From positions 9,058,001 through 9,122,000 of the forward strand of contig OV121092.1 in NCBI GenBank assembly GCA_921293015.1: a stretch of DNA of 64,000 nt, written 5' to 3'. The notes beneath the pieces were generated by a model. It was not told the origin of the DNA. It saw only the letters and a program-made list of their open reading frames with translations, and made no database searches. Of this stretch, positions 6,786 through 62,815 are shown piece after piece (the stretch's first letter is position 1; each line of letters opens with the position of its first letter). This DNA comes from Phorcus lineatus (taxonomy: Eukaryota > Mollusca > Gastropoda > Trochida > Trochidae). The translations under genes and the position numbers were made by a program.

Positions 6786-9700
6786 CTGTGCGGGAGGGGA
6801 GTTGTTCCACGAGTGTGTGATCGAGGAATCCTTCAAGGAAGCGGACGTTGTGCGACTCCTCATCCAGATCCTCGAGGGTCTGACCTATCTACACGAACGC
6901 AATATCGTCCATCTAGACCTCAAGGTAAAATTAAAGAAAAAGCTTAGTTACAAGCCCTGTCCATGAGCAGTCAGACTTTAGACAGGACTTATTTCATACA
7001 GTGATAGTGTACAGGCATCTGTGAGGTTTTGGTGCTACCTCATATTCTCGAATACAACCCTTGGTTCTCAAATATAACCTGGGCCCCAAATACAAAACGG
7101 GGGTTATGTGGTGCTTAGGTAAATTACAACCCATGTATATACAACATATAGAATTCGAATTAAGACACAACCCAGGTGTTTTATAGAACCGGCGGGGTAA
7201 AGGGGTTCAGACCATAATAGAACACTGGGGTTATATTTGAGGACATATGGTATGAAATCTAGTGCAGGAGCATGCTTTGTTCTCTGATTGTAAGCCAGTG
7301 CTCCAAGGTTTCACTGGAAAACATAACTACATTTCTGTGGCCTGCTTCTTCTCTTCAACAATACTTGCTGACAGGGTGTAGGTGAAATACTTTTGTTAGT
7401 CATGATGTCACGATTCACCGATTTATCATCATGGTTCAGTTAACAATATGATACAAGACCCAAGTAAATAAATCACAATCCAACTTTTTGTGAATAATGA
7501 TCTGAATAATTGTGAATATTGATCAAGAAATTCAGAGTTTGTGAAAATACTCTGTAAAGTAGAGTTTCTTAAGATAATGTTCAAACAAATATTAAAATAT
7601 GAGATTTATAGATAACCTTACTTGTTTTGTGTTCAACTGTTAGTCACATAACTTGCTCTCTTGTTAGCATATCAAAATGATATTTTTCCACAGGAATGTT
7701 ACGTTTATTGAATCATGATACCTATCGTATTGTGACCTAAGTACTGTGGTTTGTATTGTATCGTGAGGTACCTGTATTGTGACATCCCTAATAAATAGCG
7801 GTAATCTTAGTCTAAACTCTCATTTTACATGTCCTTCATTCAAAGACCAAGGATATAAAATGTAAACAATCACATGTCCAACTTCACCACAAGACTACAA
7901 ACAGTACAACATAACCTTTCATATAAAAAACAACACAACCGATGCAACATAGACCTATGGAAAACAAAGTACAACAGGTACAACAGAGTCCAAAGTAAAA
8001 CACCAGCGATGGAAATAAACTACCTGTTGAACAACTGAGAGGTATTTCAGGTGGCAAGCCTGTAAATCAAAATGTCATTACGCAAGATAAGGTGTGAAGG
8101 AAACACTTCTTTCAGACTGCATGTGTGTACATCAAAACTGAGGCACTTTCAAGTGTTTCTGATAAGCCAGGCCGTGCTAGCCAACTTGAAAGTAGGCGAC
8201 TGATAGATGTGTAGACCATGAAACAAGTTGAAATCTCGGGACTGATAGATCAGTCAGTTCTGTCAGTTTGGGTTGTTTTATGATTTGTGAGGGGTGAAAG
8301 TCCTCCAAGATGAAATAAGATGGAATGTAGCAAGATAACAGAGTATGAATGGTATGTGAATTTGATATTTGGGTATGTTGTATTCAAAGCTGATCTTCAG
8401 GCCCCATTTTCATGAAGTCCGGTAAATGCTAAGGGCGTCACAGCTACCCATAATTACTACTTTGAGTTACAGCCACCTTAGCCTATGGGAGCACTGTGCA
8501 AGACTGGGCTGATCTTTCTTCATCATCGACCTAGTTGTAGAGTAAAATTTAGTTTATGAAAAATTTTAATAATTTACAGTTCCTTCATCCATAATATTGT
8601 TTTTCTTTGGGCTCCTAATTTCATTAATCAATCAATCAGTCTAGATTTGCTGAATGTGGATCTAGACTGTATAAAATGCTCCTTTATATACACAGTCATG
8701 AAGCAGAACTAACCTAGTTGTTGAAAACTGTTTTAATTCAAATTAAACTTGCTTTGTGGTTGTCTTCTAGGAGTCATGAGTCCAATTACCGTATTCGACG
8801 TGATAAGCGCCTGGGGCGCTTTAAAAATTGGTAAAAGGGGGCGCTTATTAAAACAATAAAAATTTTCCTCAAGTTTAGTCTTCAAAGTGTTTTCTTACGA
8901 TACACATGTCTTTGAACTAACTTTTATCATTTTGATGGTGGCTGGGGGTCTTGAAATACCCTGTGTTCTTCACTTTAGTGGAAGTAAAAGACTTATTGAA
9001 AGACTAAAAAACCTTCTTCAATGAATCAGCTTGCAAGGTAAGCAATGTTGAGAGGTGGGCGCTAAATCAGGACGCATATTGTTCAGTCAAAAACGTGGTG
9101 GGTGGGCGCTTATAGGGGAGTGGGCGGTTATTAAGTCGAATACGGTATTAAAGTTTAATATTAAATATGGGTCATGCTTTGCATACATAGTTGGACTAGT
9201 AATTTATGTCGTTCACTCTTTTAACTTCTAGAAGATTAACATTACTTCTGGTAGAATCGATAAATTAAGTGTTAAACGAAATCATGTGTAATTTGTTCTC
9301 AAGAGAGGTAGGCACTGGGATAAGATATTCTGTGTTCAACAAAGTGTAAAAAGCTCAAATGAATGGTCACATGGGGTACAAACAGGAATCCTTATGATTC
9401 TTAACTGTCAAGTCACATCTGTTATTAATCCATCAACACCTTGAATATAGTACTACTGGGAATATGAGAAGTTCTGTGTCTGGAACCACTAGGGGCAATT
9501 TGCTGAACTCAGTATTATTTTGATACTTATTCGACTAAATATAGTCACCATGTTAGTATTGTTAAGGTGTCTCAAAATGTCTGGAATGGAAATACTAAAA
9601 TCACAGAAATATACATTCGTTTTGAAGTTTTCATCAGGAGGAAATATTGACCTTGCGTAGGCGCAATAGGGGATTTTTGGAGGTTGACACTATCTACCTG

Positions 9701-12700
9701 AAATTCTGGTGCCAAACCATTCTTAAGTATAGAAACAAGCTAGCACATGACCCAAGTAAGGCACATATTCCTTATAAGGATAGAATGATGGTAATCTGTT
9801 ATTTGAACTGAGGATGTTTATCAAGTTTTGATCAGTTCCTTGGCATGTTTTTGCCTGGTCCCAGGTGTTATCAAACCCCAGAGATTTGTTTGAAGAAGCG
9901 ACTGTAGTTCTCCTTTGTGGAGAAAATTGCCAAGTCGGCAGAAATAATTCCTGATTGTTGCAAATGTGCTTAAATTGTATTGATTGTTTGATCAAGTTCT
10001 ACTTGTGAAAGTTGCACTGCATGTTTTATTGATTTGCTGCCTAGTTGCTGTATAGCTGCCTGTCTGACTAATTGCTTCAGGAGAGCTCTCGGGGTTCTGT
10101 TTTCTTGCAGAGTGTAACAATAGCTCTTCTGGATAAAGTTTTCTGAATATAAAAACTTTGGTAACTTCAGGATTACATTTCTCTTCAAGTTGCTTTACAT
10201 TATTTTGCTGCTACATAACTTTTTTAGACAGTGTTTGTTAGTTCAAAGATAAATTTGCTACATAAATGGTTTTTATCATCAAAAACTGGCTCTATCAGTG
10301 AGATCAGGCGATATTTACGAGTGATATCTGCAATTTACAGTCGAATTGTCATAATTAAAGCAGTTACATCATCAGTTAAGGAAAATGCAATGACCTCACT
10401 TCACAAGAAGCCAAATGGCAGTTTTGAGTTCAGAGATGTTCATTCCTCAAATGACAACTGTTGAAAGATGTTGATGATTAAAACAATCTCTCCTTCTTAT
10501 CTCCTGATGTCAAATTAAGTTTTAAGGCAGTGTTTTATGTTAAAACACACAAAATAAATGCATAAATGCCTTTTGTCATTTCCCATCTCAAAAGATTACT
10601 ATTTGAGTAAAATATTTTGGTGCCCAGATGTTTTTATTAAATCAGTAGTTAGTGTAGATAGGTTCATTGTGCATGTGATATTCACCATATCCTGAGGTAG
10701 TTTTGTGGGAAACTCTCAATATATTGCTCAATATATTTTATTTCTGTTATATAGCTGTCAAATGTATATCATTTAAACCTCATTATGATGGCCCATAGAT
10801 AAAGTTATTCAGGTAAGCAAATTTCACTGCATTCCTGCAGCGGGCCAGTTTAGCCTCCAGCAGCCTGAGTTGTCCCCCTTGATAACCTCTCGTAACTTTT
10901 GTCTCTCTCCTGATCTATGCTCTATTAACAATGATTTGTTTCCCATGTTTCAGCCGCAGAATATTTTATTCACGAGACCATATCCCGAGGGCGATATAAA
11001 AATCTGTGATCTGGGATTTGCCTGTCTCGTAAACACCGGCGAGGATATACGCGACATTATCGGGACCCCGGACTATGTTGGTAAGGCTATCAAATGTTTT
11101 TTATACCTTCAGTTATGTTTTATTTATCGGGGCAATATTTTTCATTGTCTTCCTAACATTTGTTATAGTAGTCGGTTGTCTTAGGGTACAAAAATGAATT
11201 TTTTTGTGAAACTTTTGAAGATATTGCCTTTTTTGGCAAAACCTTTTTTTTTTATCAAGTATTGCTAAACACATTTTGAAACAAAAGGTTTTTTTTCCAA
11301 ATATATATATATATATATATCATAGTGAATGAAGACCTGAACTTGTTATTGCTAAATTTGGTAACCATTGTTTGTAAACTGTAAGTCTTATTCATCAACT
11401 TCATCAAGAAACATTTTTTCCGCAATATGAAAATAGTTTGAAATTCAGTAAAATTTAACAAATATTTACTAGAAGATGTTACTTTTGTCTATAAGTGTAA
11501 CTGTTTCTTTCATTTAGCAAAGTGAAATGAGTTTTGAAAAAGAAATTAAGCAATTTGACACTTTACCAATTCAGGCACTATAAGATTTAGAGTTCATTAA
11601 TTCAATTGTTCTGTCTCTTAGGGTCTAAGAGTTAGATAATTCAATCATTCTGTCTCTTAAGAGTTAAATAATTCAATCATTCTGTCTCTTAAGAGTTAAA
11701 TAATTCATTTACTGTGTCTCTTTAAATCTTAAGAGTAAAATAATTTAGTTACTGTGTTTCTTAAAATGCAAGAGATAAATAATTCAAATAGTGTGTCTCT
11801 TGAAATCTAAGAGTTAAATAATTAAATGTTTGTGTCACTTTAAATTTAAGAGGGGTCAATAATTCAATTATTGTGTCACTTTGAATCTCGAGTTAGATAA
11901 TTCAATTTCTGTGTCTCTAAATCTAAGAGTTGAATAACTCATATACTATGTCTCTTTTCAAATCATTGTGTCACTTTTAATCTCAGAGTTAAATAAATTA
12001 CTGTCTATACTCCAGCTCCTGAAGTCCTCGACTACGAACCCCTGAACACGATGACCGACATGTGGTAAGTACTCGCTGTCATCTATCGTTAAATTCTTTG
12101 TTCTTTCATCTTTCAATCTATCTGAACATCACAGCCGATGTCTGCATCTACTTTGAACCAAAATGAAAATGGCAATTTAAATGCCTTAGCTTTCTAAAAA
12201 AGTAATATGTTTTCATTACTTTAGTAAAATGTTTTTTAAAATTGAGGGAAATAGTTAAGATGTTATTAGAAAATCGCATTTTATTACTTCCCTCAGTAAT
12301 TATATTTCACTCTGTTCAGATAAATGTTTTTCTTATTGAATATTAACTCATGAGATATGTGAATCAGTGGTAGGTCCTAGCTCAACCCAACCTAATTACC
12401 TGTATTAATGTCACCAGGAGTATGGGCGTGCTGGCCTATGTGATGCTGACCGCGTGTTCCCCATTCGCCGGGGAGAACAACCAGGAAACCTTCTGCAACA
12501 TCTCCCAGGTTAAACTCGACTTCCCGGAAGATCTGTTCGCTGAGATCAGCGAGGCTGCTCAGGACTTCATCACTGGCCTCCTCGTCAAGAACCCAAGGTG
12601 CGTCAGGGATAAATTCTTGTAGTTTTGAGTTCATTATTCTTGTGAGGTACCCCAGGTGCATAGGGGAGATTACTGTTGAGATATCAGTTCATTTTTGTAG

Positions 12701-13574
12701 TAAAGAACCCCAGTTTTTTTGGAGAGACAACTCTTGGAGGTCTGGCTTAATTATTCTTGTGAAGTACCCCAAGTGTGTCGGGGAGATTACTGTTGAGATA
12801 TAGGTTCATTATGGTGGTCAAGAACCCCAGGTATTTGCGGGAGACAACTCTTATAGGTCAAAGTTCATTTTTTTATCAGAAAAAATGCTATTTGTATTTT
12901 TGTTTAGAATGATCGATTGATGAAGATATCAAAATGTTATACCAGATGGAAGAACATTCTCAAAATAACATATTTAATCCATTTCTGCTCATAATTCCAG
13001 AAAGAGGATGACCGCCCGTCAGTGCCTGGAGCACCCATGGCTCAAGTCGTACGTTGACCTCGGTGAAGTTCCCTCTCTCCCCTCTCCGTCCGACGCAGCG
13101 TTTGACCTGTCTCAAGACCTCGGATCAACGGTCAACTACCACTCTAAATCTCGGGAAAACCAGGAGAATATCATTAACGGCAAGCAGATGAGGGCGGCAT
13201 CTGCCGGGGCGGAAAAGGAGGGTCGAATACCAGAAGACAGAGAGAGGGAGAAACCGTTACTGAACAACCAGAAGTGTTCCATGTCTAACGTCGAGAAGAG
13301 GCGGTCCATGGAGATACCTCTCAAGAAGTTACGAAGCGATGACTTTAGCGATTCTGTGATGTATGAAATGTCCTGCAAAGCTGTGAAAGAGTCTGCGAAT
13401 CACTACGAGAGCACCAAATCTTATGTAGTTCAAAGAGAACTGGAAGTGGTTGGGGATGAGACGTCATACGTTGAGTCCACGACGTGTGTTACTATAGAGT
13501 CGGAGATTGACAGTAATATACTACACGTGTCACCCGTGGAACAAGACAAATGCCTTAAGTCAACCCCAGATTAA
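6786..13574 (+). CDS. STK17: STK17/DRAK-like serine/threonine kinase (DAPK family), N-lobe missing, five 3' exons
   Basis: Exons: 6786-6924, 10954-11080, 12016-12064, 12418-12597, 13001-13574 (stop TAA), all with GT-AG borders and consistent phases. They give 355 residues, starting with one base of a split codon. Exon one ends with the catalytic loop HLDLK (residues 42-46), the HLD form typical of DAPK/DRAK kinases, interrupted by an intron just before PQN. Exon two has the Mg-binding motif as DLG (65-67) instead of DFG, then GTPDY; exon three supplies APE (89-91) and DMW. Exon four ([28 protein letters not shown]) closely matches vertebrate STK17A/B. Exon five finishes the C-lobe ([13 protein letters not shown]) and adds a Ser/Lys-rich tail of about 170 residues with RENQENI and KKLRSDDF, which recall the end of vertebrate STK17B. 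The family phosphorylates Ser/Thr substrates and is linked to apoptosis signalling. The ATP-binding N-lobe is not in the recognisable sequence. Family call is strong; orthology to 17A or 17B is undecided. Confidence 0.9.
7036..7252. mobile_element. MITE-like element with imperfect terminal inverted repeats, kinase intron
   Basis: The left end TACCTCATATTCTCGAATAC and the reverse complement of the right end (TACCATATGTCCTCAAATAT) match imperfectly over about 25 bp and both run into an AACCC block. There is no coding capacity. It resembles the 'ACC-TAT-CTCGAATA' class of invertebrate MITEs; I could not settle the target duplication. Confidence 0.5.
8788..9146. mobile_element. 359-bp MITE with ACCGTATTCGAC inverted ends
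   Basis: The element begins ACCGTATTCGACGTGATAAG and ends with the inverted form ...GTCGAATACGGT; the ends pair over roughly 25-30 bp with a few mismatches. Both sides are flanked by ATT (8785-8787 and 9147-9149), a plausible 3-bp target duplication. It has no ORF and lies in the kinase intron between exons 6924 and 10954. The rest of that 4-kb intron shows nothing else I can name. Confidence 0.7.
11590..12000. repeat. Degenerate minisatellite next to a 3' splice site (kinase intron 2)
   Basis: About ten units of roughly 35-45 bp repeat the pattern 'GAGTTAAATAATTCAAT...TGTGTCTCTT...' with drift. The array stops some 15 bp before the acceptor of the exon starting at 12016, so it supplies the polypyrimidine-rich context and candidate branch points. 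An (AT)n run lies at 11300-11321 in the same intron. Confidence 0.75.
12584..12860 (+). repeat. Tandem copies of an exon end and its 5' splice site (kinase intron 4)
   Basis: The exon end AAGAACCCAAG and following donor GTGCGTCAGGGA (12589-12609) recur downstream in diverged form at about 12645, 12703, 12758 and 12818, for example GGTACCCCAGGTGCATAGGG and CAAGAACCCCAGGTATTTG. Spacing is about 57-60 bp, with alternate copies more alike (a two-unit, roughly 116-bp pattern). Several copies retain a GT at the donor position. No other coding signal is seen in the copies. Confidence 0.7.
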
Positions 13575-27800: not shown

Positions 27801-29242
27801 GAAGCATCGTAGCATTGCGAAAAAGAAATGGATTATTTTGAATTTTCAATACAGAAGAGAAGATCCATTGCACCTTTACGCAATCGTATGTCATACCCAA
27901 CAGTTAACCGTATTAGTTTTTGGCAGGTCACTGAAGTGACCAAGGTTCAAAATTTCGAAAAAACTAATTTTTATTTTTCTCTACAAACTTCTTATTTGGT
28001 GATTAACACCTTTGAATACAAGTCATATTTGTTTGTTTGCATTAAGTCAATAGGAGTTTGCTGATTTTGTTCTCTAAGAGTCAAAATAGAATATTTTAAT
28101 CAAAATTTTGGGAAATCGTAATTTCGAAAATCCGACCCCTTTTGTCCATTTAGTCATGCCAAAATTTGAATTTTTGTTCGAGAGATGAGACAATACCACA
28201 ATAAATTAATAAATGTCTACTTTACATAAAGACAATTGGAGATCCTGTGTTAGTTCTGCTGAAATTGTTTTATTGACATTCAAACCTAACCCAAGTTACA
28301 TGATATTTGCACTAAGATACAGTAGAAAGTGAACAAACTTTTAATATGCAGCTGTATTATGATTTAAGAATCTTTATAAGTCGTTAAATATTTGTTCCAA
28401 GTATGAAATAGCCTTTTGCCTCGAACATTAATACTATCATCTTTATTGATAAAAATGTTAATAAAAGCCCATTTTAATAAGCATTGTCAAAAAACACAAA
28501 TGCTAATATTATCCCAGAAGGAATGGTACTTATTAACTATTGATGAGGAGAGATCTATCCAAGTGTAACATGGGTACACCTGGTATCCTCAATTTACATT
28601 GATGATACAAATATCTGGTGTGTTTGTACCACAGAGAGGATCTCCCCGGTCTCGGCAGTGAGTCACAGATCCAACGTCACTGTATACGCCTGGACCTCCT
28701 GCAAGAGAAACAGCCCAGAGCAGATCAGCATCAGGGCGGGTCAGTACCTTAGTTGTTTGTGTCTCTAGTATCATTTCATCAATCCACTACCATAGTTGTT
28801 TGTGTCTCTAGTATCATTTCATCAATCCACTAACATAGTTGTTTGTGTCTCTAGTATCATTTCATCAATCCACTACCATAGTTGTTTGTGTCTCTAGTAT
28901 CATTTCATCAATCCACTACCATAGTTGTTTGTGTCTCTAGTATCATTTCATCAATCCACTACCATAGTTGTTTGTGTCTCTAGTATCATTTCATCAATCC
29001 ACTACATAGTTGTCTGTGTCTCTAGTACCTGTATCCACTAAAATCCACAAGATTTAGAAAGCTAAAGTTCTGTCAATGTTGCAGGAATGAAGCTGAGACA
29101 ACTGCAGGCAGCTAACGACAAGGGGATGGCATATGGCTACAAGCGGACAAGGTTTGGGATAAAGAAATATGGCTTCTACCCTGCTGAGCTTGTCTCGCTC
29201 TCATTCGCTGATACAATCAGGGAGTCAATGTCATCTGCTTGA
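21826..29242 (+). CDS. F-BAR domain protein with C-terminal SH3-like domain (NOSTRIN/PSTPIP-type architecture)
   Basis: Ten exons: 21826-21881, 22976-23091, 23316-23469, 24052-24148, 24563-24745, 25391-25509, 26621-26726, 27043-27376, 28635-28739, 29085-29242 (TGA). All borders are GT-AG, phases fit, and the product is 475 residues. Residues about 1-280 are helical, charged and Leu-heptad rich (LKTWRSFVHCIVGANQAYC, SYLKVVKRLTDLELVLSES, ETELLKKRFLQDEEDKLC), as in F-BAR domains that dimerise and bend membranes. A Ser/Asp-rich linker (278-388) begins with an acidic DDLDDDTDSYDEG stretch. Residues about 403-462 form a divergent SH3-like fold (VTVYAW... GYKRTRFGIKKYGFYPAELV); the usual ALYDY and double Trp are weak, so proline-peptide binding is uncertain. 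F-BAR/SH3 proteins link membranes to actin regulators. Length is near that of NOSTRIN (about 500), but orthology is not proven. For exon 2 the acceptor at 22975 is preferred over the one at 22983 because only it keeps the frame. Confidence 0.8.
25039..25128. repeat. Palindromic MITE-like hairpin in F-BAR intron 5
   Basis: AATCTGCACATTTTGAACAC... (25039-25064) is inverted at 25103-25128 with one or two mismatches, leaving about 38 bp between the arms. It is noncoding, and no clear target duplication was found. Confidence 0.6.
27728..28355. mobile_element. 628-bp TA-flanked MITE with about 58-bp inverted ends (Tc1/mariner-type) in F-BAR intron 8
   Basis: The element starts CAGCTGCAGACCAAAAG and ends with the inverted form CTTTTAATATGCAGCTG. 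The ends match over about 58 bp, interrupted by a variable block of about 16 bp. Both ends abut TA (27726-27727 and 28356-28357), the target of Tc1/mariner elements. Internal open frames (longest about 78 codons at 27828-28064) have no transposase motif, so it appears non-autonomous. Confidence 0.75.
28744..29030 (+). repeat. 44-bp minisatellite starting just after a splice donor (F-BAR intron 9)
   Basis: The donor GTCAGT at 28740 is followed within a few bases by the first unit (TAGTTGTTTGTGTCTCTAGT...CAATCCACTACCA). About six nearly identical 44-bp units follow, ending some 50 bp before the acceptor of the last exon (29085). Units differ by one or two bases, so the expansion is recent. The array fills most of the 345-bp intron. 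Confidence 0.9.
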
Positions 29243-32589: not shown

Positions 32590-34240
32590 TATCCCCCGCC
32601 CAACATAGTTGGTGGGGGATATTGAAATGGTCTCCGTTCGTCCCTCCGTCCGTCCCTCCGTCCCGATAATGTTTCCAGAGCACAACTCCAAAACGGTGAG
32701 ACCTATCTCGAAGAAACTTGGTATGTGCAACGGGCATCATGCGGAGATGTGCCTTTTGGGGTTTTCAACTTCTTTGCATTTTTATTATTACCCGTTTCCA
32801 TGGAAACGTAACATAGGATTTTGTTTCCGGAGCACAACTCCAAAATGGTGAGACCTATCTCGAAGAAACTTGGTATGTGCAACGGGCATCATGCGGAGAT
32901 GTGCCGTTTGGGGTTTTCAATTTCTTTGCATTTTTATTTTTACCCGTTTCCATGGAAACGTAACATAGGATTTCGTTTCTGGACCACAACTCCAAAACTG
33001 TGAGACCTAGCTCGACGAAACTTGGTATGTGCAACAGGCATCATGCGGAGATGTGCCTTTTGGGGTTTTCAACTTCTTTGCATTTTTATTTTTACCCGTT
33101 AATGTTTCCGGACCACAACTCCAAAACGATGAGACCTAGCTCGACGAAACTTGGTATGTGCAACAGGCATCATGCGGAGATGTGCCTTTTGGGGTTTTCA
33201 ACTTCTTTGCATTTTTATTTTTACCCGTTTCCATGGAAACATAACATAGGATTTTGTTTCCGGAGCACAACTCCAAAATGGTGAGACCTATCTCGAAGAA
33301 ACTTGGTATGTGCAACGGGCATCATGCGGAGATGTGCCTTTTGGGGTTTTCAACTTCTTTGCATTTTTATTTTTACCCGTTTCCATGGAAACGTAACATA
33401 GGATTTTGTTTCCGGACCACAACTCCAAAACTGTGAGACCTAGCTAGACGAAACTTGGCATGTGCAACGGGCATCATGCGGAGATGTGCCTTTTGGGTTT
33501 TCAACTTCTTTGCATTTTTATTTTTACCCGTTTCCATGGAAACGTAACATAGGATTTTGTTTCCGGACCACAACTCCAAAACTGTGAGACCTAGCTAGAC
33601 GAAACTTGGTATGTGCAACGGGCATCATGCGGAGATGTGCCTTTTGGGGTTTTCAACTTCTTTGCATTTTTATTTTTACCCGTTTCCATGGAAACGTAAC
33701 ATAGGATTTTGTTTCCGGAGCACAACTCCAAAATGGTGAGACCTATCTCGAAGAAACTTGGTATGTGCAACGGGCATCATGCGGAGATGTGCCGTTTGGG
33801 GTTTTCAACTTCTTTGCATTTTTATTTTTACCTGTTTCCATGGAAACGTAACATAGGATTTCGTTTCTGGACCACAACTCCAAAACTGTGAGACCTAGCT
33901 CGACGAAACTTGGTATGTGCAACAGGCATCATGCGGAGATGTGCCTTTTGGGGTTTTCAACTTCTTTGCATTTTTATTTTTACCCGTTAACGTTTCCGGA
34001 GCACAACTCCAAAACGGTGACACCTAGCTCGATGAAACTTGGTATGTGCAACGGGCATCATGCGGAGATGTGCCTTTTGGGGTTTTCAACTTCTTTGCAT
34101 TTTTATTTTTACCCGTTTCCATGGAAACGTAACATAGGATTTCTTAAAGGTTGTTTGTAGAAAAACAACATGATCACTGTTCAATATTCCACAACTAGTA
34201 TCCTTAACTACCCTTTCCTTTTGGCGGGGGATATAGATGA
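32590..34240. mobile_element. Tandem-repeat element (pearl/Helentron-like): ten 152-bp units between GC-rich ends
   Basis: The left end has a strong hairpin, ATCCCCCGCCC...GGTGGGGGAT (about 32590-32622), then a (GTCC)n-like stretch. Ten core units follow (starts of the CACAACTCC landmark: 32681, 32833, 32985, 33114, 33266, 33418, 33569, 33721, 33873, 34002). Unit length is 151-152 bp, except that the third and ninth are 129 bp because they lack the same 23 bp, which includes TTTCCATGGAAACG. The right end carries CTTTTGGCGGGGGATATAG (about 34218), echoing the left GC-rich motif. Some units read open for 60-90 codons, but 152 is not a multiple of three and frames shift between units, so they are not genes. 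The architecture fits non-autonomous Helentron/'pearl' elements of bivalves; that assignment is inference. Confidence 0.7.
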
Positions 34241-55600: not shown

Positions 55601-58600
55601 GGAATATTCTGTAAAATAATTCTCTTTGTCTCTCCACAGATCGTGTATGTGACAGTCTCATGTCCGTATATCCTCGTGACGGTGTTCCTAGTACGAAGTT
55701 GTCTGCTAGATGGCGCTATAGACGGAATTATGTTTTATATTGTACCCGATTTCGAAAAACTCACAAATCCTAACGTAAGTATTATAATAATAAATTCTTA
55801 TGCTAAGTTTTCAAATAATTTTTTGCTTATAGAATACCAACGTTCAATGTATTATCGATCCGTTTTCGTCCGCCAGGTGTGGATGGAGGCCTTGGGAATG
55901 GCACTGTACATGATGGGCATCAGCTATGGCTTCCAAATAACGATGGCGGCACACAACCCGATAACAAACAACTGTCTTAGGTAACTTCCATTTAAAGGAT
56001 TTTACTTTTCAGGATTCGAACCCTCAAACTTGTTGATATATAGAGAATCTCACCCAAGTGTCTTCTGATATCAAATATATCAACACAAGTTGATAAAAGT
56101 TACAAATATCCGAGGCTTGCCGAGGATATTTTACTTTTATCAACGAGTGTTGATATATAGGTAGAACGGAGCGAACTTTATTTCTTAAATATATATATTC
56201 ATGTAAAAACGTGATATTGATATAACTTTCACTTCCCAATCATGTCAATATTGAATATATATTCATGTAACAATGTGATGTTGATATGGCTTTCACTTCC
56301 TAATCATTACAATATTGATGCTCATAAAGTTCATTCTTGTTAACGCTGATTTTATTTCACAGGGACGCTGTATTGATAAACTTCATCAATCTGATCTCCC
56401 AAATATTCTTTGGGTTCGCTGTGTTCGCTATAACAGGTCACGTGGCCTACAAGCAAGGCGTTAGTTTAGACCATTTCAAAACTTCAGGTATGTGAAAAAT
56501 ACAGTTTGAAAAAAAATTAACCTCAGAATTGATAATGCCTTTTTAGGAATATTATTTTTTAACATATATTTAAGACATCTGTAACCGCCAAAGGAACACA
56601 CGATTTTTGTAGATTTGAAATTCCTTGTGCCATAGTGCGACGAAGGATTTGATCATAATGGTGTTCGCACCGAAACAGCCAACTCTTGAAAATAAGAAGT
56701 TGTAAATGCTTCGCACTCGATCGTTCCTATGTTGTTTGCTAAAGATTCAATGTACAAAACTGATTAAATATTGAGCTTGGTTATAGTACTCAGGAAGGAT
56801 CATTACTGTTTATGTTCTTAAACATCGTATCAAAATAATCTTCAGAAACTTTAATTTTCAATCCCTAACTGTAGAAAAGATCAAATCAAATTCATTATCA
56901 TTTTCAATATTTTAGAAATCATATTCTAACTCATATTTGATATATTTATCCTTGTGACATAAAATATAGCTGATATCGGACATTTGGTTCCAATCATACC
57001 TCTTCTGCACCAGGCTTCAAGTTAGGCTTCATCACGTACCCAGAGGCGGCCGCCTACCTGCCTCTCCCCCAGCTCTGGTCCGTGTTTCTCTTCGTTATGC
57101 TTTACACCCTCGGAATCGACAGTCTGGTGAGTCACGGGGGACATCTTGTCCTTTGACCTAATTACTTTTGACGACCTATTTTTTCCAATGCATACATTTC
57201 AAACTGAGTTTTGGAGTTTTTCCTGTAGACTCTACAGTGATCCTTTCGGAGATTAGTTATTTTACAAAAGATTTAGTCTTATTATATTTTTAACGTATAC
57301 ATTGTTTTGTAGACATACGCTGATGGTTTGGCGAATCTTTCTCAACAGGTGCCTTCCTATGAAGTTGTAACAACAATGTTCTCAGAGAAGTTTCCCAAAC
57401 TCGCCAAGAGACGCTGGTTGCTTAACGCATGCGTGTTGATCCCTTCCTGTCTCTTGGCCCTCCCCTATATGACAGAAGTGAGTGTCCACTGACAACATTT
57501 CTTTGAAATAAAAATATACCCTTCGTCATTTTGTTACGTGTTGTAAGTATACTCTTATTATTCATGTATTTGAAATTAGGAGGCAACGAACGAAATATTT
57601 CAATAAAGGGTTTTTGGGACTAAAGAGGATCGAACGGACCGAACTTCTCCGGATAATTCTTTAGATAATGTACATGTATGTGAAACCACAAAGTTAACTC
57701 TCCCCATTTTACACATGTGTCCCCCGCTGTTTGATATTAGTCCCTTTGATAACTTTTCAGGTTGAAGTACCATAAAGTGTTCCTTTACCTTGATGTTTCC
57801 AGGGCGGGGTCTACTTCCTGACGGTGGTCGAGTGGTACGCTTTCTTTCCGGCCATCATTTTTTTCGCTATGTTGGAGTGTCTCGTGGTCGCCTGGGTGTA
57901 CGGTACGTAAAGTGCCTTTAGTGTGACAGGTGTACGGTGCGTACATTGCCTTTAGTATGATAGGTGTACGGTACGATTAGTTCATTTAGTTTTATGGTGT
58001 TCGGTACGTAAAGTGCCTTTATTGACATAGGTGTACGGTACGTATAATGCCTTTAGTTTATGCGGGGTGTACGGTACGTACATTGCCTGTAGTTTTATGG
58101 TGTACGGTATGTACATTGCCTTTAGTGATGTGGGTGTACGGTACGTAAAGTGCCTTTAGTTTTATGGGTGTACGGTACGATTAGTTCATTTAGTTTTATG
58201 GTGTTCGGTACGTAAAGTGCCTTTATTAATTTAGGTGTACGGTACGTATAATGCCTTTAGTTTTATGGGTGTACGGTACGTTTAATTCATTTAGTTTTAT
58301 GGGTGTTCGGTACGTAACGTGCCTTTATTAACATAGGTGTACGGTGCGTATAATGCCTTTAGTTTATGGGTGTAGGGTACGTACATTGCCTGTAGTTTTA
58401 TGGTGTACGGTATGCACATTGACTTTAGTGATGTGGGTGTACGGTACGTAAACTGCCTTTAGTATGATAGGTGTACGGTACGTTTAGTTCATTTAGTTTT
58501 ATGGGTGTTCGGTACGTAACGTGCCTTTATTAACATAGGTGTACGGTACGTATAATGCCATTAGTTTTATGGGTGTTCGGTACGTAACGTGCCTTTATTG

Positions 58601-61600
58601 ACATAGGTGTACGGTACGTATAGTGCCATTAGTTTAATGGATGTACGGTACGTTTAGTTCATTTAGTTTTATGGTGTTCGGTACGTAACGTGCCTTTATT
58701 AACATAGGTGTACGGTACGTATAGTGCCATTAGTTTTATGGGTGTACGGTACGTACATTGCCTGTAGTTTATGGTGTACGATACGTAAAGTGCCTTTAAT
58801 AACATAGGTGTACGGTAAGCATAGTTCATTTGGTTACATAGTTTTACAGCGCCCTTGGTTACATGGTTGCGCAAACCGTGCTTTGGCTGTAGTTACAGGG
58901 GTGTACGGTACGTAATGTGCCTTTCATAACATAGGTGTACGGTAAGTATAGTTCATTTGGTTACATAGTTTTACAGCGCCCTTGGTTACATGGTTGCGCA
59001 AACCGTGCTGTGGCTGTAGTTACAGGGGTGTACGGTACGTAATGTGCCTTTAATTACATGGTTACAAAGTAACATGGTGTACAGTGCCTTAAATTACATG
59101 TGTATCTAGAACATACAGTACCTTTAATAACATTGTTACATAAGTACACAGGTAGAGTATGTGCCTTTAGTTACATGGTTTACGATTTGACATTCAGTTA
59201 CATGGATGTACGGTACTTGCAATGCTTTTCGTAACATGAGTGCATGGTACGTACAGTGCCTAATTTGCATAATATACTTGTTGCGTTCATATGATGGCAC
59301 GCAAAAACTATAGCCAAAAACTATTTTTGAATGTAATAAATGAAAGTCATTTTATATATTGTATGACCTTGATGGAGTATGAGTTGGCAGAATTGTTGGA
59401 GGGGTTTAAAACTAAAAAATAGATGTTTTACTCCCACCTTATAGTGGTAAACTATTTCAATAAGCGCCCCCTATTTGTAGTCCGAGAGAGATCTTAGGAA
59501 GCAGCGAGGGCGGATACATATACGCTGATTTAGCAGGATTGATATGATACCAGTTTAATGTTTGCTACCGTTTGTGTTACCTGTTAGTTATAAGATAAAG
59601 AGATGTTAAGTTTCCGTAAATCATTTAATTATGAAGCTAATGATCTTTTTAAGAATCTTTAGGATTCTATTGATAAGGTTATGATGTTGCAGGTGTTAAG
59701 AGGATAGACAAAGCGATGACGATATTGTGGGGGAAAAAGCTCCTCCCGCTAATGTCCCTGCTCTGGAGATTCGTCTGTCCCATCTTGTTGTTGGTGAGTT
59801 CATGTAAATCCTATCCCTAAAACTTGTTATTTGTGATCGTTTTCGACAGGAGTGCTTAGAAAATAGTATTTCCCGAGCGAGAGCGAGAGATATTCTCATA
59901 TTCACGCACGACTGTAGTTAATATACTATGTCATTGGTATTTCGGTAATAAATTAGTGCCCATGGCATACTATTTTTACAATATCCGTGTCAAAATATAG
60001 GTATATACCTCGCTCTCCCTCGGAAAATTCTAATACTAGCCACTGCAGTCATAACATAGAATTAAATGGGACGCATCATATCTATTTGATTATAAATATC
60101 ACCGTGCAGTATATTCCAGGACAAATAAAAACTATCATCATACTCATGTTATATGTGAGCCAAAAGATTTTTCAAAACTTTGAAAACGGCCTGTAATAAT
60201 CAGGAATTCAGGAATTAGACCTCCAACATTTTAATAGCTAGCCATAACATCTTTGAATTCTTCGTTATTTTTTTCGCTTTAGAAGACCTCAATAGCTATC
60301 ACGGCGCATATTGTTACGTACGCTTCTTGCATTACCATAGAAGTGTTATATTGAAGGACAATACTACCTCCTTCCCTCTTAAAATGCATCGATCAGCCTG
60401 GGTCATATAAGGTTTCATGTGTACCTTCCAGATGGTGTTCGGCTATTCGCTGTATTCGTACCGACCCCCAAAGTTCGAGGACTACGACTTCCCTCCCTGG
60501 GCGACGTGGTTCGGTTGGCTCATCTCCATAGCGACCCTCTTCCCCACCCCCGCCTTCCTGGTCTGGTCGGTCTGGACCGCGCCCGGGGACACACTCAGAG
60601 AGGTGAAGGCAAATCATTAATCAATAACAACCCAGCTCTCCCCGCAAAGCATAGCTCGCTACGGTCACAATCACAATCTACTTTAAGCCTTGCTGCTGAG
60701 CGCCGACGATTATGGCTTGCGTCCGACGCTCTCTTCGGCAATGATTGCGACCTTCAGGACATTCTTTCTCAAAGTAACCTTTACTAAGGTTAATCTTAGC
60801 TCCCAGTATTCAACATTAAACTAAGGTTACCTTAGTGACTAGTGACTAATATAGTTTGGCGTCAGTTATGCCTTGCGGGGAAGGTATGTAAACCATTACA
60901 ACGCAAAAGCCTCTTTTTTGTGTGTGATATACTCGCTATTTGTTGGGAGTCCCATATGTCTACTCATTCTCTCCCAACAGAGGTAGCTCCGTCATAAATT
61001 CCTATACAACCTCTGTCTTAATACGAATGATCCTCTGGTTTCCGGCAGTTTCCCCTACCGGCACAATACAGCAAATTAAACTACCTTGCAATATTTCGGC
61101 CATTAAAAACAACGAATGCCATCCTGCTACATCAGCGTATTTGTCTCCCCCTAGCTCCATCATATACCCTGATATCCTTCGGCCTTAAACGCTCGTATCG
61201 CTTACGGCTGGTTACTCATGGCTATTTATAGCCTACATTGACTTATACGCTGATGTAGCAGGATGAACGAATGCATGAAAAACATATTTGTTGTCAAACA
61301 GGCCTGTGCAATGATACAGTCGCAAAATGAGACGTTTGTGTTCAATAAAGACGACTCAAAGTGCAAGGTGCATATTCTAATAAAGTTTAGCTTTTGGAAA
61401 GCTTACCTAGGCGATTTGAATGATAACTTTTGAAACGGCGTTGCTAATTGCACAACTAACTTTGATTGCGTCCAATCAGCGTTCTACATTTCTAGAAGAA
61501 ACCTTCCTAATAAGACAGAGGATGTAAAGGAATTTTTTTACTGAGCTCACTCTGTTGGGAGAGAATGATGTCAACTGTTACCAATGTCGTCATTTAATCG

Positions 61601-62400
61601 AGACGAACCAGCTGGTGTTGAAAATGATCAAAATAGGGCTTTTCCGTTCAGTAAAAAGACACGGGAAAGGTTTTACTCCAGACAATGTACCGTTTCTAGC
61701 GTGCGCCAACCATGCACTCAAGCATAATTGTGAAGTTTTTACAAAGCAGATCATAATACAGATTCGAGTTGACAGCAATCGATAGGTTATATAAGTTGTG
61801 TTCATATAACTTGGGCGTTTCATTTCTGCATCTACAAATGTTTAGGTTATTTATCAATTTTCTTTAAAAACTTATAATCGTTATATATATTACTATATCA
61901 GGATATACGATATTTTGACACTCTTCAAAGTCAAATAGAAATACTTTTAAAAATCCAGAAAATGCATAATGATCTTAAATCTCAGTGAAAAGGGTAAAAG
62001 ATATGATGAACATTCATATTCATTTTTTCAAATGTCACAAATTTCCTATGAAAATAAATTAATGACTTTGTTGAAATGGATTGAAACCGATGCTAAAGAA
62101 TGAAATATTTACCCGACTATAAAGTATATTTATCATATAAAATATCATTTAATTATATTTGTATTTCTAATATACATAATGTTGTTAACATTTATATATC
62201 AATGAAGAAAAAAAAAATTGAAATGAGCTACTGAATTATATAGACATAAAAATTATTGATTTTACCCGAATTTATTTGAATTTCAGAAAGTCCAGAATGC
62301 ATTTCGACCGATGGCGAGATGGGACACTCATGATTGTGACGCGGACGGGGATGGAGACGGGAATAAAACCACTTTACGAAATTTAATAAACGATAAATGA
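52659..62400 (+). CDS. SLC6-family (neurotransmitter:sodium symporter) transporter with altered Na1 and chloride sites
   Basis: Thirteen exons: 52659-52773, 53136-53267, 53823-54090, 54475-54607, 55640-55774, 55877-55980, 56363-56487, 57014-57126, 57349-57477, 57803-57902, 59693-59793, 60432-60602, 62287-62400 (TGA). Phases agree and the product is 579 residues, the usual SLC6 size. TM1 has GSIWKFPY (24-31; usual GNVWRFPY). TM2 has YLEMFVGQY. The second outer loop has the CX8C disulfide pair (CDQWWNSEHC) and four N-glycosylation sequons (NKT, NTT, NMT, NAS). TM4 entry has NVLGISDGLESPGQLRW, TM6 MMGISYG, and TM8 LGIDS (371-375). Gly22 replaces the monoamine-type Asp, so an amino-acid-like substrate is more likely than a monoamine. 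The N-terminus is only about 10 residues before TM1, so an extra 5' coding exon is possible. In exon 9 the acceptor at 57348 is chosen over 57312 because it aligns without an insertion. Plasma-membrane location is inferred; the substrate cannot be named. Confidence 0.88.
56076..56158. repeat. 83-bp hairpin in SLC6 intron 6
   Basis: ATATATCAACACAAGTTGAT... (56076-56114) pairs with ...ATCAACGAGTGTTGATATAT (56121-56158); the centre is the palindrome ATATCCGAGGC..GCCGAGGATAT. It is a compact MITE-like fold-back sequence. Confidence 0.65.
57893..59264 (+). repeat. 34-bp minisatellite built from an exon end and its splice donor (SLC6 intron 10)
   Basis: The exon 10/intron 10 junction GGTGTACG|GTACGTAAAGTG (57895-57914) is the first unit of about 35-40 units of roughly 30-35 bp (GGTGTACGGTACGTA-AATGCCTTTAGTTTTATG). 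Most units keep GGTACGT or GGTAAGT, so each carries the last 8 exon bases and a usable-looking donor. Some units have GTGTTCGG. A longer unit of about 126 bp, including TTTTACAGCGCCCTTGG, is repeated at about 58810-59050. Beyond 59060 the copies are degenerate. The array takes up most of the 1790-bp intron. Confidence 0.92.
60640..60880. mobile_element. Small inverted-repeat element (CCCCGCAAAGCATA ends) in SLC6 intron 12
   Basis: CCCCGCAAAGCATAGC at 60640 is inverted as GTTATGCCTTGCGGGG ending at 60880. Inside is a second inverted pair with AACCTTAGT/ACTAAGGTTA blocks (about 60775-60835). The element begins about 38 bp after the exon 12 donor. Target duplication not found. Confidence 0.5.
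60965..61567. mobile_element. MULE-type MITE, copy 2, in SLC6 intron 12
   Basis: The ends CATTCTCTCCCAACAGAG and the inverse CTCTGTTGGGAGAGAATG are perfect over 18 bp and continue imperfectly for about 55 bp. It is flanked by ATGTCTACT (60956-60964) and ATGTCAACT (61568-61576), a 9-bp duplication with one change. The interior matches the copy at 36896-37330 in reverse orientation (for example the GCGACTG/CAGTCGC and TTTTGGAAAGCTTAC blocks). It contains a second MITE at 61120-61265. Confidence 0.88.
61120..61265. mobile_element. 146-bp MITE nested inside the MULE-type MITE, exact 9-bp target duplication
   Basis: The left end CATCCTGCTACATCAGCGTA is perfectly inverted at the right end (21 bp, 61245-61265). 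AACGAATGC flanks it at 61111-61119 and 61266-61274. A related terminus, TACGCTGATTTAGCAGGATT, stands alone at about 59519-59538 in intron 10, probably a remnant of the same family. Confidence 0.92.
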
Positions 62401-62815
62401 AAACCAGTTTGCAAATTAAGAAAACGATAATAAGGGAAAACATTGTCGAATGTTTAATAAACGATAAATAAAAACAACTTTACAAACATTCGTAATGATG
62501 ATATTGAAAACCACTTTACAAACTTTGGTAACTGTGATATTGAAACCACGTTACGTACTTTGGTAACGGTGATATTCAAAACCACTTTACAAACTTTGGT
62601 AACGGTGATATTGAAAACCACTTTACAAACCGTTAACGATGATATTGAAAACACTTTACAAACTTTGGTAACGGTGATATTGAAAACCACTTTACAAACT
62701 TTGGTAACGGTGATATTGAAAACCACTTTACAAACTTTGGTAACGGTGATATTGAAAACCACTTTACAAACTTTGGTAACGGTGATATTGAAAACCACTG
62801 TACAAGCTCCGACTG
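62340..62815 (+). repeat. 36-bp minisatellite overlapping the SLC6 stop codon and 3' UTR
   Basis: The unit CTTTGGTAACGGTGATATTG-AAAACCACTTTACAAA (36 bp) is repeated about nine times from 62497 to 62810, almost without change in the centre. More diverged units extend upstream to about 62360, where AATAAAACCACTTTACGAAA and AACGATAAATGA encode the end of the transporter (residues NKTTLRNLINDK and the stop). Because 36 is a multiple of three, long repetitive frames stay open on both strands. They carry no domain and are not called as genes. Confidence 0.88.

Follow-up and report, generated by a model that had tools for sequence, protein, structure and literature searches.

The window analysed here comprises 64,000 nucleotides of the Phorcus lineatus genome (C19:9058001-9122000 of a single 958-Mb assembly) and contains, on its forward strand between roughly 52.6 and 60.6 kb, a gene of the SLC6 family of neurotransmitter transporters. 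Its exons were located by translation and tblastn, and its identity is indicated by a Pfam SNF match at 1.8e-124, with dopamine transporters as the top solved-structure matches. Splicing of exon 10 to exon 11 gives the continuous frame ..VAWVYG-VKRID... At this junction lies a minisatellite with a unit of about 34 bp (57893-59272), which comprises 10 bases of exon 10 and 1370 of the 1790 bases of intron 10. Its first unit is the authentic exon 10/intron 10 junction, TGGGTGTACG followed by GTACGT. This had been proposed in an earlier reading of the letters of the window, referred to here as the original prediction, and both the exon coordinates and the spliced frame agree with it. The features are listed in the table.

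Features of the window and candidate exon-end arrays elsewhere in the genome; the count of exon-side bases in common with the following copy stops at the second mismatch
Feature	Position	Strand	Remarks
SLC6 exon 10 (..LECLVVAWVYG)	57803-57902	+	donor position common to 22/22 paralogous exons compared
Authentic exon 10 donor, GTACGTAA	57903-57910	+	in-frame stop at 57908-57910
Intron 10 of the SLC6 gene	57903-59692	+	1790 bases
27 clean array units, 32-36 bp	57893-58806	+	initial 10 bases belong to exon 10
Composite repeats, 127-bp period	58807-59059	+	contain the top-scoring decoy donor (58942, GTAAGTAT)
Degenerate 3' tail of the array	59060-59272	+	
SLC6 exon 11	59693-59793	+	translation, tblastn
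STK17-like kinase donor array	12573-12877	+	donor 12598 is unit 0; cores at 12587, 12645, 12703, 12762, 12820
Candidate exon-end array	C1:18761671		31 bp; 22 exon-side bases in common
Candidate exon-end array	C1:57758752 (L066)		28 bp, 46 copies by listed spacing; 21 exon-side bases in common
Candidate exon-end array	C5:18173971 (L070)		37 bp; 12 exon-side bases in common
Candidate exon-end array	C7:2626226		mostly 51 bp; 3 exon-side bases in common (a low figure, as the next copy is truncated; fuller match judged by eye)
Candidate exon-end array	C11:21310552		50 bp; 34 exon-side bases in common

The core GGTGTACGGTACGT occurs in 34 copies within 57895-59272 when up to 4 mismatches are allowed (14 exact, 29 with at most 1 mismatch), and 33 of these were used for alignments and donor scoring, the copy at 59076 being excluded. 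The array is thus present as predicted, with slightly fewer than the 35-40 units claimed. In the rest of the window, the core is absent at up to 2 mismatches; at 3 mismatches there is one forward and one reverse match, and at 4 there are two forward and seven reverse matches. In the output of Tandem Repeats Finder, 57893-58825 is an array with a 34-bp unit and 58773-59059 a composite with a unit of 127 bp. Divergence is greatest among the units of the 3' tail, where the spacer is a different one (TTACATG). GGTGTACG is found exactly at 23 places, and GTACGT or GTAAGT at 24, so the statement that nearly every unit repeats the exon bases together with one of these hexamers is somewhat strong, while the GT itself is retained at the donor position in 32 of 33 scored units.

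Comparison of units 1-27 shows that the mean distance between units is smallest at lag 9 (5.7), followed by lags 6, 3, and 11 (6.6, 6.8, and 6.9), and reaches 8.2-9.0 at lags 1, 2, and 4; the array therefore appears to have been copied in blocks of several units. In the same units, the 14 exon-like and donor columns are conserved at 0.958, compared with 0.782 for the other 20 columns, which places this block first among 34 circular blocks. The original prediction suggested a test of whether the GT is more conserved than the rest of the unit. Higher conservation is seen for the block as a whole; within it, the donor has no lead over the exon-like part, with 0.951 for the donor hexamer and 0.963 for the exon-like octamer.

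The paralogs of this gene indicate which of the two came first, the exon end or the repeat. A search yielded 36 matches, from which 30 loci were extracted, and 23 of these represent exon 10 in further SLC6 genes. Among them, L035 reads through without an intron at this place and was excluded. In all 22 remaining exons, W-x-(Y/F)-G followed by GT stands at the identical place (Y in 18, F in 4; two pairs are near-identical), and the position of intron 10 is hence common to all of them, in contrast to a newly gained intron that relatives would lack. The nearest paralog, at C19:40.93 Mb, is 88% identical over exon 10 and its junction reads TGGATATACG followed by GTTTGT; no array is present at its exon 10 donor. 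When two segments of the array (57886-58100 and 58807-59290) were compared with the 958-Mb genome at the DNA level, they matched intron 10 only, and no related array was found elsewhere by this search, which skips very common words. An origin of the array from outside was rejected on these grounds. To judge from the paralogous sequences, the exon end seems to predate the array. Since the exon end looks old and the searches return only intron 10, exon 10 most likely seeded the repeat, in line with the derivation from the junction that had originally been proposed.

The frame of exon 10 continues into the intron as GGT ACG TAA, where TAA stands third among the codons beyond the junction if the split codon is included. 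Because this stop precedes all later donors, the use of any of them would lead to a premature stop, as had been anticipated; all eight later donors that were translated carry it. Donor strength was expressed as the predicted pairing energy with the 5' end of U1. The authentic donor reaches -6.7 kcal/mol. Among the 224 other GTs in 57903-59690, 11 pair better and 11 tie, and the best of them, at 58942, reaches -11.2 kcal/mol, with the array units lying mostly between -4 and -7 kcal/mol. The authentic donor ranks 62nd of 93 collected SLC6 donors, and the three array-carrying SLC6 donors rank 62, 72, and 85. As 11 other GTs score better, U1 pairing alone is insufficient to explain use of the first donor, which would presumably be chosen through exon definition or the order of transcription.

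Arrays anchored at splice junctions recur in this genome. In the same window, a kinase gene unrelated to SLC6 (Pkinase at 3.2e-18; STK17B at 2.4e-31) carries a donor array, spotted by eye, with five cores at a spacing of 58-59 bp. The best downstream copy of its donor matches at 18 of 24 bases, a value equalled by none of 56 other introns and none of 200 shuffles. The SLC6 paralog at C16:752.6 kb has an array of 31 bp x 5.8 at 66% at its exon 10 donor; in its sister gene at C16:799 kb, a match of 76% extends over 67 bases and is partial; this gene is not conspicuous in the scan, since its score of 15/24 is equalled by 5 of 74 others. Deeper in intron 10 of the C16:752.6 kb gene, a 6.25-kb array of about 138 x 45 bp extends over C16:753.3-759.6 kb (L048 from 8304 into L049), and both this array and the upstream donor-anchored one carry GTAAACAGGGGCGAYAAC. 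A further SLC6 paralog, at C19:20.01 Mb, contains 30 bp x 9.5 at 96% at its exon 11 donor (L062, reverse strand, approximately 9620-9900). This array has nine donors including the first, seven of which read ATG followed by GTACGT. Two of the eight later donors are in frame and are predicted to add VRLCVSTVLM once or twice, while the other six shift the frame, with no stop ahead of the donor.

Acceptors are affected as well. At the exon 8 acceptor of an SLC6 gene at C19:10.498 Mb (L058:4638-5329), three truncated 172-bp copies lie upstream of the intact exon, each consisting of about 112 intron and 60 exon bases, with CACC common at the breakpoint, as judged by eye. At the exon 2 acceptor of the SLC6 gene at C16:748.5 kb (L048:3493-3594), the first 51 exon bases and the AG form a repeat of 51 bp x 2; as the first copy, too, has an AG before it and keeps the frame, either acceptor is a candidate. 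In the donor arrays, the copy marked as exon end by protein homology is the first, and at the exon 8 acceptor the intact exon is the last. Splice sites thus seem to be open to the birth of minisatellites like other sequence, and to survive it because the outermost copy remains functional. A dispersed motif resembling GGGGAGATAACTC lies inside the kinase and C16 arrays (window 12663-12850, L048:7596-7760); it has 22 matches in 190 kb, some of them inside these arrays, compared with 1.2 in shuffles. As a cause of the anchoring it was rejected, as it leaves the anchoring unexplained.

On the scale of the genome, three spaced AGGTAAGT give 426 matches, compared with 386 for the reversed pattern, which is no clear excess; these figures count match rows rather than arrays. 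Among the matches listed (C1 to C11), 13 distinct arrays were distinguished, and the upstream flank of 12 was taken after exclusion of one near-copy. Five of the 12 look anchored at an exon end and are regarded as candidates. The other seven are without a convincing exon, including L069, whose flank stops short of the array start. The candidate exon at C5:18173971 belongs to an Alg9-like mannosyltransferase (PF03901, 6e-22) and is the sole one of the five with a protein-family match; the other four are recognised by an open frame only, three of them with an AG acceptor judged by eye. Two short candidate exon peptides gave no Pfam match. One of these also had no solved-structure match, and for the second, designed pentatricopeptide proteins came up at 3.5e-8, no individual stretch passing by itself, a result that is not interpretable. 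The structure of two candidate arrays is unusual: at C1:57758752-57760019, 46 listed 28-bp copies of CAG followed by GTAAGT stand after the apparent exon ESDEDEPAAKKVKASPAPQ, each unit ending in the acceptor-like CCCCACAG, so that they resemble 28-base introns placed end to end, and the C5:18173971 units read TTACTACAG followed by GTAAGT, an acceptor fused straight to a donor.

The rate at which junctions acquire such copies was assessed in 12 SLC6 gene regions, in which 88 exons were found. A self-copy was defined as 24 bases with at least 17 matches within 300 bp, the cut-off of 17/24 being set after the scores were known. Downstream self-copies were present at 3/82 donors and upstream self-copies at 2/88 acceptors, compared with 18/6088 and 10/7002 for swapped introns; at a cut-off of 16, the values are 4/82 donors (swapped 80/6088) and 3/88 acceptors (swapped 54/7002). 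The enrichment at donors implied by the swapped introns was rejected, as a control at every 25th position of the same sequences removed the signal. In this control, a downstream copy was found at 969/5272 positions, and 101/5128 were first copies. At the first-copy rate, approximately 1.6 donors would be expected, and 3 were observed, including the index case; this comparison involves no formal test, and the paralogs are not independent. In eight of these regions, 18,756 of 96,000 bases belong to arrays. The overlaps with exon ends number 4, compared with a mean of 20.4 in random shifts that is driven by a few long arrays. Arrays are thus rarer at exon ends than by chance, which matches what selection predicts. 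Special targeting of splice sites is supported neither by the first-copy rate nor by the random shifts or the AGGTAAGT triples. In these small samples, arrays start at donors with a frequency similar to that at other positions, and nothing points to targeting.

The original prediction knew of no repeat class defined by an amplified 5' splice site, which did not hold, as two human repeats precede this one. A minisatellite of human IFI6, dating from 1995, is said to be a tandem repeat that supplies multiple splice donors; its unit is reportedly short and in frame at the exon end, with later donors keeping the protein open. According to PMC4526556, two downstream repeat units serve as donors in IFI6, giving three mRNA species. 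The window array likewise starts at the exon/intron boundary and has downstream units with donors, which are potential ones here. It differs in its unit of about 34 bp and in that the later donors stand behind a stop, in each of the eight translated cases. The 31-bp variable number tandem repeat (VNTR) of human CBS, c.1444_1467+7(16_21), comprises 24 exon and 7 intron bases per unit and is polymorphic in people, and the title of Lievers 2001 associates it with reduced enzyme activity (PMC2630376, citing Lievers 2001). Each unit of both arrays repeats exon end and intron start, here 10 exon bases and the donor. Unlike in CBS, the window unit is mostly intron (about 10 exon and 24 intron bases) and is seen in one assembly. 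For CBS 844_845ins68, the same paper describes a duplicated intron/exon junction that is removed through splicing (PMC2630376). This duplicated junction resembles the exon 8 acceptor array at C19:10.498 Mb, while relative to the window array it is a single extra copy at the opposite end of an intron. Finally, intron gain by tandem genomic duplication, in which a duplication containing splice-site sequence creates a new intron (PMC4974935), shares with the window array the splice-site sequence within a tandem duplication; here, an existing intron has been lengthened. The window array is thus of the known IFI6/CBS kind, with a larger intron share and with decoys behind a stop. In the literature searched, the coverage of which is limited, no report of splice-junction minisatellites as a recurrent class within one genome was found.

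Taken together, the array is best read as a near-neutral minisatellite that was born at a splice junction and is tolerated since its outermost copy still functions, a reading to which a probability of roughly 0.78 is assigned. A short duplication across the exon 10 donor, of about 10 exon and 24 intron bases, would have arisen in a genome where minisatellites are dense. Its expansion into the intron, partly as multi-unit blocks, may then have come about through slippage or unequal exchange. The outermost copy would supply the exon end and the donor, and the protein would be unaltered provided that splicing keeps to the first donor. If a later one were chosen, TAA would be met immediately and the product presumably degraded, which would leave the array near neutral. 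Other splice junctions of this genome have been struck by the same process, in the small sample examined at roughly the rate of other places. Several observations weigh against this reading. In U1 pairing the authentic donor is surpassed by others, and its exclusive use needs a further cause. The higher conservation of the exon-like and donor block is unpredicted by plain neutrality, and being the best of 34 blocks is an event of about 3%. Unit 1 lacks the erosion of an edge copy, as its mean distance (6.8) lies inside the range of the remaining units. Furthermore, the background comparison is built on related genes and few events.

Some of these observations would suit a regulated decoy array, in which competition between the first donor and later ones sets the share of productive mRNA as an unproductive-splicing switch. 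The better-pairing GTs, headed by 58942, the stop directly after the junction, and the relative conservation of the donor-containing block are in line with such a switch, but the nearest paralog lacks an array, donor columns are no more conserved than exon-like ones, and arrays start at donors at close to the background rate, which makes this reading unlikely. The retention of GT in nearly all scored units and the 24 consensus hexamers could alternatively reflect a U1-binding platform, where many donors recruit U1 against premature polyadenylation or to retain the transcript. Given the predicted pairing of the units, mostly -4 to -7 kcal/mol, the low ranks of the array-bearing SLC6 donors, and the lack of a clear genome-wide excess of donor-consensus arrays, this is highly improbable. 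A decay switch and a U1 platform had both been suggested in the original prediction, and the present analysis of DNA sequence yielded no evidence for either.

An arrival of the repeat from another place, with a merely coincidental match to the exon end, is also very unlikely. The 3' tail, with its diverged units and its TTACATG spacer, looks as if it had another history; against this, no related array turned up in the genome search with its limit for common words, ten exon bases agree at a junction common to the paralogs, and similar anchoring is seen at five other junctions. An IFI6-type role in diversifying the protein in frame, for which the two in-frame donors at C19:20.01 Mb could be cited, is the least probable of the readings considered, being refuted for the window array by the stop ahead of every later donor.

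Donor choice among equals has been studied mostly with artificial duplications. Rows of donors that occur naturally at exons unrelated to each other (33 here, nine near-identical ones at C19:20.01 Mb, and perhaps 46 with consensus) would let RNA reveal how the donor is chosen, and the best use of the array is as such a natural test. A wider and rather doubtful generalisation would be that junctions repeatedly become minisatellites in this genome. Many genes would then carry 5 to 46 near-identical donors or mirror-image acceptor arrays from which the outermost copy must be picked, and in some of them leakage would add in-frame peptide repeats, providing a standing source of variable isoforms; "many", in the sense of dozens, is an extrapolation from small samples. 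Further large minisatellites of the window lie at 32662-34143, 28745-29027, and 62365-62805.

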